DNA of 64,000 nucleotides from Amycolatopsis sp. cg9 (GTDB lineage Bacteria > Actinomycetota > Actinomycetes > Mycobacteriales > Pseudonocardiaceae). The notes under the pieces were generated by a model. That model was not told the DNA's origin and made no database searches. It was given only the letters and a program-made list of their open reading frames with translations. Each line of letters opens with the position of its first letter. Positions within the stretch are counted from its first letter, which is position 1. Positions 1 to 55,053 of this stretch are shown here, piece after piece. Position numbers and translations under genes: made by a program. The stretch is taken from NCBI RefSeq assembly GCF_041346945.1, contig NZ_CP166850.1:6060501-6124500 (forward strand). The letters are read 5' to 3'.

Positions 1-3000
1 GGCGTGTTCGTCGTCGCTCGTCGCCCTGCACCTCGCGGCCCGCGCGCTGCAGAACGGGGAGTGCTCCCTCGCGCTCGCCGGCGGTGTCACGGTGATGTCG
101 ACGCCGAGCACCTTCATCGGCTTCAGCCGGCAGCGCGGCCTGTCCGCCGACGGCCGCTGCAAGTCCTTTTCGGACAGCGCCGACGGCGTCGGCTGGTCCG
201 AGGGCGCCGGGATCCTGGTGCTGGAGCGGATGTCCGACGCGAAACGCAACGGTCACGAGATCCTCGCCGTCGTCCGCGGCAGCGCGGTGAACTCCGACGG
301 CGCGTCCAACGGTCTCACCGCGCCGAACGGCCCGGCCCAGCAACGCGTGATCCGCCAGGCCCTCGCCGCGGCCGGTCTGTCCACTTCGGACATCGACGTC
401 GTCGAGGCGCACGGCACCGGGACCACCCTCGGTGACCCGATCGAAGCCCAGGCACTGCTGGCCACCTACGGCCGTGACCGGGACGAGCCCCTGCTGCTCG
501 GGTCGATCAAGTCGAACCTCGGGCACACCCAGGCCGCGTCCGGCGTCGCCGGGATCATCAAGGTGGTGCAGGCCATGCGCGCAGGCTCGCTGCCGCGGAC
601 CCTGCACGTCACCGAGCCGTCCACGCACGTCGACTGGTCGGGCGGTGCGATCGAGCTGCTCACCGAGCCGCGGGCCTGGCCCGACCGCGGCCGTCCGCGC
701 CGCGCCGCCGTGTCGTCGTTCGGGATCAGCGGCACCAACGCCCACACCGTCCTCGAAGCGCCGCCGGCCGCGCCGGTCCCACCGCGCGCCGCACCGGCGC
801 CGTCGCCGCTGGCTTGGCCGTTGTCCGCGCGCACCCCGGAAGCGCTGCGGGAGCAGGCTTCCCGGCTGCTCGCGCACCTCGCCGGGCACCGCGACGCGAG
901 CCCGGCCGACATCGGGTTCGCGCTGGCCACCACCCGGACGCAGTTCGCCGAACGCGCGGTCGTCACCGGCGGCACCCGCACCGACCTGGAGACCCGCCTG
1001 GCGGTGCTGGCCCGCGGCGGCAGCGTCCCCGGGCTGGTCACCGGGACGGCGGGGGAGCAGGTCGCCGCGTTCCTCTTCGCCGGGCAGGGCAGCCAGCGCG
1101 CCGGCATGGGCCGCGACCTCCACGAGCGCTTCCCGGTGTTCGCCGAAGCGCTCGACACCGTCCTCGCGCGGCTCGACCGGGAGCTGGACCGCCCGCTGCG
1201 CGAGCTGCTCTTCGCCGAGGAGGCGGGAGCGCTCGACGAGACGCAATACGCGCAGCCCGCGCTGTTCGCCTTCGAAGTCGCGCTGTACCACCTGGTCCGC
1301 TCGTGGGGGGTGACGCCGGAGTACCTGGCCGGGCATTCGATCGGCGAGATCGCCGCCGCGCACGTCGCCGGGGTGTTCACCCTCGACGACGCCTGCACGC
1401 TGGTCGCCGCGCGCGGCCGGCTGATGCAGCAGCTGCCCGGGGGCGGCGCGATGATCGCCGTGCAGGCCACCGAAGCCGAGGTCCGGCCGCTGCTGGCCGG
1501 CCGCGAGGACGAGGTCGCGCTGGCCGCGGTCAACGGCCCGGCGTCGGTCGTGGTGTCCGGCGCCGCCGGCCGGGTCGAGGAGATCGCCGCGCACTTCGCC
1601 GCCGACGACCGCAAGACCCGGCGGCTGCGCGTCAGCCACGCCTTCCACTCGCCGCTGATGACCCCGATGCTCGACGACTTCCGCAAGGTCGTCGCCGGGC
1701 TGACCGCGGCCGAGCCGCGGGTCCCGATCGTCTCGACGGTCACCGGCGACCTGGTCACGGCGTCGACGCTGGCTTCGGCCGAGCACTGGGCCGAGCAGGT
1801 CTGGCGGCCGGTGCTGTTCGGCCCGGCCGTGCGGCGGCTGACCGAGCTGGGGGTCACCGCGTTCGCCGAGATCGGCCCCGACGCCACGGTGTCCGCGATG
1901 GCCGCGGAGTCCCTCGGCGCGCGGGACGTCGCGGTCCCGTTCCTGCGCCGCGACCGGTCCGAAGCCGACGCGGTCGTCGAGGCCCTCGGCCGGCTGCACG
2001 TCGCCGGGGTCGCCCTCGACTGGCCCGCGGTGTGCGGCCCGGACGTGCGGGTCGTGCCGCTGCCCACCTACGCCTTCCAGCACCAGTGGATCTGGCCGGG
2101 CGGCGGCCTTTCCCAGGCCGGCGACGTCTCCGCGGCCGGGCTCTGGGCGGCCGGGCACCCGCTGGTCGGTGCCGCGGTCGAGCTGCCGGACTCCGGCGGC
2201 CTGCTGTTCACCGGACGCCTCTCGCTCGCCGCCCAGCCGTGGCTGGCCGGGCACACCGTCGGCGGGGCCGTGGTGGTCCCCGGCACGGCGCTGCTGGAGC
2301 TGGCCGTGCGCGCCGGCGACCAGGCCGGCTGCCCGCGCGTCGACGAACTGACGCTGGAGGCGCCGCTGGTCGTCCCGGACGGCGGCCGGGTTGTCGTCCA
2401 GGTCGCCGTCAGCGGCGCGGAGGACGGCGTCCGCACCCTGCGCGTCTACTCCCGCGACGAAGGCGAGCCAGGTGCGGCCTGGACCCGGCACGCGAGCGGC
2501 ACGCTGGTGTCCGCTGTGGACGAACCGGCCGCCGCTTGGCCCGAGTGGCCACCGGCGGGTGCGGAAGCCGTTGCCCTGGAAGGCTTCTACGACACGATGG
2601 CCGACCGCGGCCTCGGGTACGGCCCGATGTTCCAGGGCCTGACCCGGGCCTGGCGGCACGACGGCGACGTCTACGCCGAGGTCGCCCTGGCCGAGGACGA
2701 CCACGACACGGCCGCGCGGTTCGTCGTCCACCCCGCCCTGCTGGACTCCGCGCTGCACGCCGCGTCGCTGCTGGAGGTCGGGGGCGGCCTGCCGTTCAGC
2801 TGGTCCGGCGCCGCGTTCCTCGCCTCCGGCGCGACTTCGCTCCGGGTCCGGCTCCGGCCGGTCGACGGCGCGGTCGAGGTCACCGCGACCACGCCGGACG
2901 GCACCCCGGTCGTCGCCGTCCGCTCGCTGGCGCTGCGGGCCGTGCCCACCTTGGCGTCCCCGGCGCCGACCGGATATCGGCTCATCTGGCCCGCTCTGCC

Positions 3001-4708
3001 CGAAGTCCCGCTGCCACCCGGCACATCCCCGGTGACGTTGCTCCGGGTGCCTTCCGCGGAGGGACCGGTCCCGGCCGCCGTCCGCGCGGTCACGGCCCAG
3101 GTGCTGGCGGACGTCCAGCGTGCGCTCGCCGACGAGCCGACCCTCGTGGTCGTCACTCGCAACGGCGTCGCGGTCGAGCCGGCCGAGCACGTCGACCTCG
3201 CCCACGCCGCCGTCTGGGGCCTGCTGCGCGCGGCCCAGCTGGAGAACCCGGGCCGGATCGTCCTCGTCGACTCGGACACCGGCGAAGTCCCGGAGACAGC
3301 CCTCGCGGCCGCCCTCGCGGCCGCCGAACCCCAGGTCGCCCTGCGCGCCGGTCACCTCCACACCGCCCGGCTCGCCCCCGCACTTTCACGTGAAAGTGCC
3401 GACCTGGGCCCCGCACTTTCACGTGAAAGTGCGGCGTCCTGGGAGCCGGACGGGACCGTGCTGATCACCGGCGGGACCGGTGGGCTGGGTGCGGTCTTCG
3501 CCCGGCATCTCGCCGGACGCGGGGTGCGGCACCTGCTGCTGCTCGGCCGCCGCGGCGAGGACGCGCCCGGTGCCGGTGACCTCGTCGCCGAACTGGCGGA
3601 GCTGGGCGCGCGAGCCCGGGTCGTGGCCTGCGACGTCAGTGACCGGGACGCGCTCGCGAAGGTCCTGGAAGAGGTCGAGCCGACCGCGGTCGTGCACGCG
3701 GCGGGCGTCCTCGACGACGGCGTCCTCGGGGCCCTGACCCCGGAACGCCTGGACACCGTCTTCGCCCCCAAGGTCGACGCGGCCTGGCACCTGCACGAAC
3801 TCACCGCACCCGGCACCCGGCTGGTCTTCTTCTCCTCGATCGCGGGCACCCTCGGCGCGGCGGGCCAGGCCAACTACGCTGCCGCCAACGCCTTCCTCGA
3901 CGCGCTCGCCCACCAGCGAGCCGCCGAGGGCAAGGCCGGGGTCTCGATCGCCTGGGGTGCGTGGAGCACCGGCATGGCCGGCGCGCTCACCGACGCCGAA
4001 CTGGCCCGGATGCACCGTTCCGGCCTGCCGCCACTGTCCACGGCGGACGGTGTCGCACTGTTCGACGCCGCACTGGACACCGGCTCGCCCGCGGTCGCGG
4101 CCCTGCGGCTCGACCTCGCCGTGCTGCGCGGCCAGGACCCGCTCCTGCCCGCCCTGCGCGGCCTGGTCACCACCACGCCGAGGCGCACCACCGCCGCCGA
4201 GCCCGGCGGCGACCTGGCCGCCCGGTTGGCCCCGCTGCCGGCCGAAGAACGGCTCCCGGTCACGATCGGGCTGGTCGGCAAGCAGGTCGAGGCCGTGCTC
4301 GGGCACGACGGCACGATCGGGGCCGACGTCAGCTTCACCGACCTCGGCTTCGACTCGCTGACGTCGGTCGAGCTGCGCAACCGCCTGGAAGCCCGCACCG
4401 GCCTGCGGCTGCCCGCGACGCTCGTCTTCGACCACCCGACGATCACCCGGGTCGCCGAGTTCCTCGTCGCCGCCGCGCTCGGGGACGGCGCCGCCGCCCG
4501 CCCGGCGCTGGCCGAGATCGAGAAGCTGGAAAGCCTGCTGTCGGCCGTGGCCGCCGACGACGACGCCCGGGCGGCGATCACCGTGCGGCTGCAAGCCCTG
4601 CTCGTCAAGTGGACCGGACCCGGCGACGCGGGGGAGACCCCGGCCGCCGGCGCGCTGGGCGCCGACGAGCTCCTCGCGTTCATCGACAACGATCTGGGGG
4701 TGAAGTGA
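1..4708 (+). CDS. Modular type I PKS, C-terminal part: KS(partial)-AT-DH-KR-ACP-docking
   Basis: Partial at the left edge. The reading frame starts at base 2 and enters inside the ketosynthase, with the active-site Cys codon at 5-7 (ACSSS). The KS motifs EAHGTGT and NLGHTQAA follow. The AT has GHSIG (Ser codon 1337) and HAFH (1637-1648), the malonyl-CoA signature. The DH has the catalytic HxxxGxxxxP motif (His codon 2252) and DSALH. The KR (about 3457-4000) has GGTGGLG, the LDD motif of B-type reductases, and the Ser/Tyr/Asn set (FSS, NYAAAN). The ACP has GFDSL with the phosphopantetheine Ser at codon 4355. The tail (about 4500-4705) looks like a class 1 C-terminal docking domain: helical segments and an acidic end ([15 protein letters not shown]). 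There is no ER, so the module should leave an E double bond. The stop lies 3 nt before the next PKS gene, which probably takes the chain through docking helices. A palindromic insertion lies in the DH-KR linker. Confidence 0.95.
3380..3433. repeat. Doubled 20-bp palindrome inside PKS coding sequence, copy A
   Basis: The perfect palindrome GCACTTTCACGTGAAAGTGC occurs at 3380-3399 and again at 3413-3432, a 33-bp step. The second copy extends to a 22-bp palindrome, 3412-3433. The element is in frame and encodes [11 protein letters not shown] followed by PALSRESA, directly before the KR Rossmann fold. The same doubled element is found at 28818-28871 in another module. Other DH-KR modules in the window lack it. 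Confidence 0.95.
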
Positions 4709-11337: not shown

Positions 11338-12117
11338 CTAGGGGACGGGGTCGGGGGTGGGGCGTTCCAGCACGGGCGTCTTCGTGTCCGCCGCGAGGGC
11401 CGGCTCGACCGGCACCGCGGCCTTCGCCGCCGCGCGCTTGGCCGCCTGGCGGCCCAGTGCCCGGTAGCGCGCCCGGTGGTTGAACCACTCCGCGATCAGC
11501 AGGTTGACCACCCACGGCACCCACGACGTCAGCGTGGACACCTGGTCCTGCACCGCCGGCGGGCCGTCGACGCCCATCGTGAACACCTCGGGCTCCAGCC
11601 ACAGGATGGCCGGGCCCAGCCAGAAGCGGGACGCCAGGATCGAGAAGCACAGCGCGAAGCTGCGCAGCATCCACTCGCGGTGCTCGACGATCCGGCCCTG
11701 CCGCGCCCGGCGGAAGCCGACGATCGTCGTGCCCAGCCACAGCAGCCCCAGCAGCGCGTTGCCCGCCTTCTGGCCCGGGCCGTGCGTGAGGAACGGCGTG
11801 ATGGTCAGGATCGCGAGCCCGGCCGGCAGCGCGCCGCCCAGGACGTAGACGCGGCCGGAGATCCGGTGCAGCTTCGGGTTGCGGTTGCGCAGCCACGGCC
11901 AGACCTGGATCGCCGCCGTCACGAACGCGACCGACCCGAAGACGATGTGCGCCACCAGCAGCGGGTAGTAGAACGGCAGGTCGAGGCGGGTGGCCGCGGT
12001 CGACTTGCTCGGGTCGAAGCCCAGGTAGTTCGGCAGCCGGAACGCGAGGAACCCGAACACCAGGAAGTAGAAGGGGACGATCCAGGGGCGTCTCAACGCC
12101 CGTCCGATGCTTGCCAT
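11338..12117 (-). CDS. DUF2306 family integral membrane protein
   Basis: 259 residues from ATG 12117 (reverse strand). A strong AGGAAGG ribosome-binding site just upstream chooses this start over a longer open frame. About six or seven hydrophobic segments are visible, including residues 12-30 and further spans in the middle and C-terminal half. Family signatures are a His-containing helix (AHIVFGSVAF), the HRISGRVYVLGG motif, and HREWMLRSFALCFSI, matching DUF2306 membrane proteins of unknown function, some of which have been suggested to handle haem or electrons. The C-terminal 45 residues are Ala/Pro/Lys-rich and probably cytosolic. It interrupts the PKS gene run and is convergent with the preceding gene; there is no sign that it belongs to the biosynthesis. 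Confidence 0.85.
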   Translation of the reverse strand: MASIGRALRRPWIVPFYFLVFGFLAFRLPNYLGFDPSKSTAATRLDLPFYYPLLVAHIVFGSVAFVTAAIQVWPWLRNRNPKLHRISGRVYVLGGALPAGLAILTITPFLTHGPGQKAGNALLGLLWLGTTIVGFRRARQGRIVEHREWMLRSFALCFSILASRFWLGPAILWLEPEVFTMGVDGPPAVQDQVSTLTSWVPWVVNLLIAEWFNHRARYRALGRQAAKRAAAKAAVPVEPALAADTKTPVLERPTPDPVP

Positions 12118-12638
12118 GGCCTGCCTTCCTTCGGGACATCCGGCGCGACGAGCATGCCGCCGCGAAACCACGGAAAACCGCAGACTTCGCGGGTGCGGCG
12201 GGCGTGCGGGTCCCGGCACCGCCCGGCCGCCGACCTCGCGAGGCCACACCGCCCGGCGCTCGGCGTTGGGCCCCGCGCGGGTTCTCCGCAGCTCGGCTGG
12301 GGCCGCCCCGACCGGCGGGCTTCCTCTGCTCGGCCTCGGTCGCGGCGCGCGTCCGGTCCCCGGCCTCACTCGGGTTGCCGACGCGCCTGTGGGTGTCGCG
12401 AATGACTCATTCGGGACGTCAGCGGTCCCGAATGAGTCATTCGCGACCTCGCCGCGCGGATTCCCGCCACCCGAGCGTCTTGCATGACTCAGTCAAGACT
12501 TCCGCGCCCGGGGCGATCTCTGGGGAAAAACCGGCCCCGTCCCCGGCATAGTCGCCTTCGACCTGAACCCCGGCGGTGGCTCCGGCGTCGCGAAGGCGGC
12601 CGGGCGCCCGCCCGAACCGGATCACTGGGAGCGCCGCG
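12118..12638. other. 521-bp gene-free divergent intergenic region
   Basis: Lies between the start of the DUF2306 gene and the start of the giant PKS gene, so it should hold both promoters. It contains a perfect 23-bp inverted repeat (12395-12447, listed separately) and an 11-bp palindrome TGACTCAGTCA at 12485-12495. No convincing -35/-10 pair was found by eye. The open frames crossing it show no recognisable protein. Confidence 0.7.
12395..12447. repeat. Perfect 23-bp inverted repeat with 7-nt loop
   Basis: Arms 12395-12417 and 12425-12447 are exact reverse complements around the loop GTCAGCG. Each arm also contains an internal AATGA(C/G)TCATT palindrome, so several foldings are possible. 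It lies about 190 bp upstream of the giant PKS start. It could be an attenuating hairpin, a large operator or a dispersed intergenic repeat; the sequence alone does not decide. Confidence 0.9.
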
Positions 12639-39746
<27,108 letters not shown>

Positions 39747-54140: not shown

Positions 54141-54187
54141 GCGGGCCGGCGCCGGGGCGGGTCTGCCGGGCTAGGTGGTGCGAGCCC

Positions 54188-54249
54188 GGATGCACCCAAT
54201 GTGGCGTTCGGTGCGTCAGACGCAACCAACGCCACATTGGGGCGCATCC
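54188..54249. terminator. Long stem-loop between convergent genes
   Basis: Arms 54188-54208 and 54228-54249 pair almost perfectly (one mismatch or bulge) around CCCAATGTGGCGTT. The element lies between enolase (ends 54140) and the MerR gene (ends 54271 on the reverse strand), so a bidirectional terminator is the simplest reading; it may also be a dispersed repeat. Confidence 0.7.
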
Positions 54250-54270
54250 ACCGGCGCGGGGGCCCGGGGG

Positions 54271-55010: not shown

Positions 55011-55053
55011 TAACCGGGACACTGTCCCATATAGTAACCGGGACAGTGTCCCA
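55011..55053. promoter_or_regulatory. Paired palindromic operator over the hydrolase promoter
   Basis: Two 19-bp direct repeats, 55011-55029 and 55035-55053, differ only at one central base. Each holds a 13-bp palindrome (GGGACACTGTCCC and GGGACAGTGTCCC). They flank a -10-like TATAGT at 55030-55035. The 24-bp period puts both sites close to the same DNA face. A regulator bound here would control the hydrolase gene starting at 55072; the divergent MerR protein or the TetR protein encoded downstream are the candidates. Confidence 0.8.

Follow-up and report, generated by a model that had tools for sequence, protein, structure and literature searches.

Among the closest described relatives of the element studied here are the REP/BIME/REPIN repeats. 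In the part of the source drawn on here, REPs are known inside genes and at convergent gene ends, also as dimers encoding 20-30 residues, and they occur in GTAG- and CGTC-tagged forms, the CGTC REPs likewise without a dedicated transposase (PMC3733652). As REPs are known inside genes and at convergent ends, the kind of element is already known. In the Amycolatopsis palindrome neither a GTAG nor a CGTC tag was seen, the GTAG ends having been checked by eye on the printed palindromes. Intrinsic terminators form a second point of reference, and for these a survey reports, in the portion consulted, that U-trails are unnecessary (PMC8355165).

The window, i.e. the whole stretch of 64,000 nucleotides that was analysed, corresponds to C1:6060501-6124500 of the genome of Amycolatopsis sp. 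cg9 (10.6 Mb, two contigs). It contains two identical doubled palindromes, both in frame with PKS genes and with the same 18-residue reading:

2-4708, + strand: PKS ORF hosting the first unit, open at the window start
3068-3370, + strand: SpnB_Rossmann match, bordering the linker on its upstream side (Pfam, converted from amino acids 1023-1123)
3380-3399, no strand: palindrome 1 of the first doubled unit, perfect GCACTTTCACGTGAAAGTGC, in frame, reads ALSRES
3400-3412, + strand: class A spacer, 13 bp, directional, CGACCTGGGCCCC, between both palindromes
3413-3432, no strand: palindrome 2 of the first doubled unit, perfect GCACTTTCACGTGAAAGTGC, at a step of 33 bp from palindrome 1
3452-3967, + strand: KR match, bordering the linker on its downstream side (Pfam, converted from amino acids 1151-1322)
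12576-39746, + strand: PKS ORF hosting the second unit, start uncertain (12639 according to our own gene caller)
28818-28837, no strand: palindrome 1 of the second, identical unit, in the large PKS gene that comes next
28838-28850, + strand: class A spacer, letters identical to 3400-3412
28851-28870, no strand: palindrome 2 of the second, identical unit

When up to three mismatches are allowed, GCACTTTCACGTGAAAGTGC has four matches in the window versus none in 100 shuffles, and five further doubles are located in PKS ORFs up to 80 kb upstream. The first-pass annotation had reported two perfect copies of GCACTTTCACGTGAAAGTGC at a step of 33 bp with the frame kept, and this was borne out (3380-3399 and 3413-3432 in ORF 2-4708). 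Its claim that other modules here lack the pair is wrong, since the large PKS ORF carries an identical pair, 13-bp spacer included, at 28818-28870. The assignment to a DH-KR linker was imprecise, as Pfam places the first unit, at about amino acids 1127-1144, between SpnB_Rossmann, which we take to be the structural half of the ketoreductase, and KR; the linker bearing the PKS copies is the one that joins the two halves of the ketoreductase. Also, the roughly 20 added residues were an overestimate, the stretch being only 11 and 7 residues longer than the native linkers of the relatives G062 and G067, respectively.

Based on the copy number, the seat relative to genes, the predicted hairpin, the stem covariation, and the presence/absence and subtype changes between relatives, we favour, with some reserve, the reading that the window pair is probably one copy of a REP-like hairpin repeat family of Amycolatopsis, most likely a 3'-end hairpin operating at the RNA level, spread by copying and exchange. 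The usual seat is a few bases past a stop codon, with gaps between convergent genes the most frequent location, and there the unit would most likely act as a bidirectional 3'-end hairpin, either in termination without a U-tract or in protection of mRNA ends. Units would have spread through copying to new sites and exchange among resident copies, and copies that landed in frame within protein linkers would have survived; those in the KR linkers may have travelled with their PKS modules. The PKS linker copies are best read as tolerated passengers.

The 16-bp core ACTTTCACGTGAAAGT is present in 129 exact copies genome-wide (reversed control 0), in agreement with a broad-sense REP, a short palindrome in many similar copies. 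The 20-mer with up to three mismatches is found at 133 places (control 0), and slightly worn copies are therefore few. The doubles amount to 47, namely 31 of class A, nine of class B, two of class C and five others. Class A, the commonest doubled form, spans 53 bp and consists of two perfect 20-bp palindromes flanking the 13-bp directional spacer, with a step of 33 bp in 30 doubles and 32 bp in one, and with 16 and 15 copies in the two chromosomal orientations; in class B the inner part forms an additional hairpin. Hence both checks proposed for the complete genome, a count of the palindrome and a search for doubling at the same 33-bp step, returned many copies (129 cores, and 30 of the 47 doubles). 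Approximately 35 copies are singles (129 cores minus 47 pairs), of which positions and contexts are available for the 12 within the first 3.13 Mb, and some are partnered by a hairpin of equal stem and different loop (L007, L009). We also note two loci, L030:524-1549 and G008 C1:5122460-5123461, from two genomes, in which cores 976 and 986 bp apart possibly flank an orthologous gene.

The seat was determined for 59 sites, comprising all 47 doubles plus the 12 singles located in the first 3.13 Mb, using gene calls from our own codon-score script. Intergenic sites number 39, of which 21 are convergent, 18 tandem and none divergent, and the other 20 were called intragenic; for scale, the gene pairs in a 100-kb block of the same genome are convergent in 17 cases, divergent in 17 and tandem in 60. 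At 35 of the 39 intergenic sites a stop codon lies 4-20 bp from the core, the exceptions being L027, L036, L044 and L058, so that the repeat is also mainly extragenic and near gene ends, again as in broad-sense REPs. The coding frame is equal on both sides at 15 of the 20 intragenic sites and differs at five. Among ten host proteins, with the KR-linker copies excluded, eight have the insert outside any matched Pfam domain and two have it within one (SoxG, AMP-binding). A single palindrome at L064:2015-2031, whose host gene matches ABC_tran, is situated 17 residues past the matched domain and reads TALSRESALLFITHDL.

The predicted folds are compatible with a role in RNA. As RNA, the window unit is predicted to form one long hairpin of at least 22 pairs (-40 kcal/mol, z -7.65), and the class B unit scores -48.5 (z -12.6); a long hairpin is likewise predicted for the window unit as single-stranded DNA. 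Covariation in the outer stem was assessed on 30 of 49 distinct hairpins, the 19 omitted rows being taken to differ mainly outside the palindrome. The observed paired cells, the cells changed on both sides and the covariation score were each reached by 0 of 500 shuffles, which do not remove relatedness, and the remaining two of the five measures by 127 and 53. Furthermore, among the gaps of 25-400 bp in eight orthologous, and hence not independent, 100-kb blocks, inverted repeats scoring at least 12 are found in 65 of the 77 convergent gaps, in 33 of the 200 tandem gaps and in none of the 97 divergent ones, compared to 0 of 374 after shuffling. Taken with the folds and the seat, these gap counts indicate a stable predicted hairpin soon after stop codons, as in intrinsic terminators. 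No U-tract is evident beside the units; the dispensability of the U-trail is disputed for mycobacterial RNA polymerase. Among window gaps of at least 25 bp, repeats with a score of at least 12 are present in two of three convergent, two of five divergent (one divergent gap measures 542 bp) and none of five tandem gaps; the divergent cases imply that the 3'-end rule has exceptions or that the caller misses genes. A GAATGACTCATTC-type hairpin at 12395-12447, in a gap called divergent (12097-12638), is such an exception or marks a missed gene, and a GGGACACTGTCCC/GGGACAGTGTCCC repeat at 55016-55052, in a divergent gap, appears more operator-like than terminator-like. An always-terminating hairpin is difficult to reconcile with the copies within very long PKS genes, where it would be harmful.

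The family is unevenly distributed. The core is present in 18 of 80 genus genomes, with 1 to 167 copies each (reversed control 0), and the stem with any loop of 3-8 nt in 27 of 80, with up to 254 copies (reversed control at most 3 per genome), the loops among the matches listed including ACGT, CCGG, ACGG, GTAGG, CCTAT and GTCAT. The 7.0-Mb genome G028 has 254 stems with GAAAGTGC, centred on CCGG among the matches listed (GCACTTTCCCGGGAAAGTGC), while the ACGT core is entirely absent from it; G037 has 168 stems. In a draw of 346 family genomes the stem occurs in 15, namely 14 Amycolatopsis genomes and a single one from a different genus, with loops TGCA and CATG; the reversed control reached 26 in one genome (G190, genus g31 of the same family), and these matches represent a CGTGAAAG-loop-CTTTCACG hairpin family of another genus. 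Stretches with two copies 11-19 bp apart among GTDB r220 species were all from Amycolatopsis (43 of 43 named stretches; rifamycinica, eburnea, sp. A133 and sp. CA-128772), a tally that may leave out records at or near the window; of their 44 doubles 12 were judged coding and 29 noncoding, and three were too close to an edge.

Comparison of orthologous coding sites reveals how occupancy changes. Seven PKS sites were compared with G042, G025, G048, G051 and G062, and with G017 where orthologous, its rows at sites 1, 2 and 4 being uncounted as apparent paralogous cross-hits with at least one flank below 75% identity. The resulting 34 species-by-site cells comprise 12 class A doubles, two class C doubles, two triples, 11 singles, two degenerate or other hairpins and five native linkers, and all printed translations are open. 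At the site of the first window unit, G000 and G042 have class A, G025 and G048 have class C, G017 and G051 (one change) have a single, and G062 and G067 have a native linker. Thus the empty orthologous site that had been proposed as a check exists in some relatives, and the suggestion that the element domesticated a linker overreaches, as the same site may be native, single, double or triple. At site 2, the single RASLSRESDAWDPDG in G048 is as long as the native linker RATLDTTETTWDPDG in G062, and replacement is therefore possible besides insertion. Exchange between resident copies could explain the changes between class A, class C and single at occupied sites, not the arrival at empty ones.

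Within the class A doubles at these sites the core is constant. In the 12 orthologous class A comparisons, i.e. every orthologue with a class A double among the seven sites, no difference is seen among the 336 positions of the 14-bp core CTTTCACGTGAAAG, third codon positions included, compared to 12 of 480 in the arms, 24 of 156 in the spacer and 150 of 792 in the flanks. Indels in three comparisons (site 3 in G048, site 5 in G042, site 6 in G025) raise the flank value, which becomes 69 of 594 once these comparisons are removed, with 0 of 252 in the core. By-eye inspection of all orthologous hairpins at PKS sites shows 42 exact cores among 47, three with one change and two that are degenerate. 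An unchanged core in coding DNA points to a further sequence-specific constraint, exerted by a binding or copying protein or by homogenisation, and suggests that something also reads the core sequence. Homogenisation alone does not readily explain why, in G048, the outer stems differ while enclosing one core. An invariant core in coding orthologues speaks against the terminator reading, as terminators need none. These coding copies represent a natural experiment, in which the core of a hairpin is held constant even at synonymous sites in the KR linker of PKS modules.

At gene ends the hairpins themselves differ between relatives. Twelve relatives, with surroundings approximately 88-95% identical, were compared at the convergent slot occupied by the copy at 3,684,548. 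Class A is found in G017 and G066, and an intact single palindrome of the same family as those in the window in G051. A TTTCATAGGGAAAG hairpin in G042 and G048 and a TTTCCTAGGGAAAG hairpin in G030, G062 and G067 have CTTTC/GAAAG in common with the window family. Three unrelated hairpins occupy the slot in G025 (GAATGACTCATTC), G041 (GAATGGCACATTGA) and G075 (GAACGACTCTTTC), and G040 has an ordinary GC hairpin. Across the 17 convergent slots of a 100-kb block compared in seven relatives, differing hairpins are found at slots 0 and 2; several others show overlaps, lack the orthologue or keep the hairpin unchanged. Two further families were counted. TGAATGAGTCATTCA is present in 18 of 80 genomes (G025 has 276 on the forward and 282 on the reverse strand; the genome of the window has 21 and 22), and GCACCGAACGCCACATTGGG in 29 of 80 (167 and 186 in G075; 106 and 102 in the genome of the window), with reversed controls of at most 1. 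A CCCAATGTGGCGTTCGGTGCG-type hairpin at 54195-54241 of the window, in the convergent gap 54141-54270, belongs to one of these other high-copy families, and the 510-bp convergent gap G000 C1:3668090-3668599 is full of degenerate CTGGCTGCC-type repeats together with a GAATGAGTCATTC hairpin.

A more far-reaching model, which we put forward only tentatively, is that these are swappable hairpin cassettes in fixed gene-end slots, copied and exchanged by a dedicated, undescribed non-RAYT machinery that would read the apical core (CTTTC-loop-GAAAG, with a lineage-specific loop). Such cassettes would have been dropped in frame into megasynthase linkers, with a core kept free of change at synonymous positions too; one candidate is a core reader of the ParB/Noc kind. 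Should the slot exchange be real, the 3' ends of genes in an antibiotic-producing genus would be renewed by whole-cassette replacement between neighbour genes about 90-95% identical, and terminator turnover would become measurable.

Alternatively, the units may constitute a functionless miniature mobile element (MITE- or REPIN-like) that is moved by a transposase in trans, with the gene-end seat a matter of tolerance only, which we consider unlikely. The 31 class A units with a common directional spacer fit such an element, as does site 3, which is native in G025 and occupied in G042, G048 and G051 with flanks 89.7-93.4% identical to G000. However, Y1_Tnp (PF01797, the RAYT transposase) was detected in 0 of 80 genus genomes, compared to 5 of 14 control genomes, by-eye inspection of occupied and native PKS sites disclosed no target duplication, and tolerance predicts neither the proximity to stop codons (35 of 39 intergenic copies) nor the invariant core. 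A RAYT-driven REPIN was rejected on the same Y1_Tnp count. The absence of Y1_Tnp also weighs against the preferred REP-like reading, in which copying would proceed without the RAYT transposase of classical REPs. Returning to that reading, the earlier description as REP-like is upheld by the 129 cores, the gene 3' ends, the hairpins, the doublets and the presence/absence between relatives. Mobility, proposed with it, is likely, although the Y1_Tnp result, the lack of a duplication noticed by eye and a single that may equal the native linker in length count against it.

Also unlikely, in our view, is that CTTTCACGTGAAAG serves at some 130 places as the binding site of a dimeric protein (a relative of ParB/Noc, a different nucleoid protein or a regulator) and that the capacity to form a hairpin is incidental. 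This would account for coding orthologues in which the core is unchanged but the outer stem and spacer are variable, and the core equals the parS consensus, as given in the excerpt of PMC7383237, with the outer G/C flipped. Relative to TGTTTCACGTGAAACA or TATTTCCCGGGAAATA, the parS/Noc consensus in that excerpt, it is the outer pair of the 14-bp core that is flipped. The exact parS, GTTTCACGTGAAAC, has 25 of the 47 doubles within 1.5 Mb, which conserved core genes may account for. However, GTTTCACGTGAAAC occurs only once, at 2,575,661, beside a ParA-type gene; its neighbours match ParA-type ATPases, GidB and R3H, and by this gene order the site is presumably near oriC. A true parS was rejected owing to the flipped outer pair and this single exact occurrence. 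Other 4- or 5-nt loops on the same stem in the genus, the patchy distribution (18 of 80 genomes) and the exchange at the slot, taken in relatives mostly by unrelated hairpins, speak against a ParB site. The suggestion of a DNA site with a CACGTG core gains from the constancy of the core (0 of 336) and loses from the alternative loops.

Selection on the peptide, with LSRES as a useful linker, is very improbable. In its favour, the class A coding copies in the genome are in sense orientation in 11 of 13 cases, six of these being KR-linker copies in one gene cluster. However, third positions of the core are invariant, other genes read HFHVKV in place of LSRES (L039; L181, L189), native linkers serve in G062 and G067, and the majority of placed copies are extragenic. 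Finally, an origin as an old linker of the window PKS or as a product of local slippage in it, to which the linker position common to several modules might point, can in effect be discarded, since the genome has 129 cores, 39 of the 59 placed sites are extragenic and orthologues differ in occupancy.

DNA-word, peptide-word and topic searches, with subscription literature not covered, found no literature on these Amycolatopsis repeats, and matches to TTTCACGTGAAA were by title mostly on parS/ParB. As far as the searches go, the repeat set in a genus without Y1_Tnp, the exchange of different hairpins in one slot and the invariant core in PKS linkers are new. Judged on the parts of the sources available, the TTTCACGTGAAA centre resembles parS (ParB) and the CCGG-centred form of G028 resembles NBS (Noc) (PMC7383237), but the Amycolatopsis core has its outer pair flipped, a variable loop length, a patchy occurrence in the genus and a tie to gene 3' ends. 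Intrinsic terminators in single or clustered form similarly place one or two hairpins soon after stop codons, as far as the excerpt of PMC8355165 extends, whereas the putative terminators described here are members of high-copy families whose sequences are nearly identical and which are also intragenic. Rickettsia palindromic elements (RPE) are alike, by their description in PMC3733652 (in part), in being palindromic units within protein genes; they differ in organism and sequence, and the main seat of the Amycolatopsis repeat is the gene 3' end. REP/BIME/REPIN, in the same partial source, are similarly short, high-copy and palindromic, located 3' of genes and between convergent genes, arranged in doublets and at times intragenic, encoding about 20-30 residues (PMC3733652). 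In contrast, the Amycolatopsis palindromes are perfect, different hairpins are swapped in one slot, and the 14-bp core is invariant in PKS genes. REP biology also gains an example from a genus that lacks the RAYT-type transposase, the factor usually blamed.
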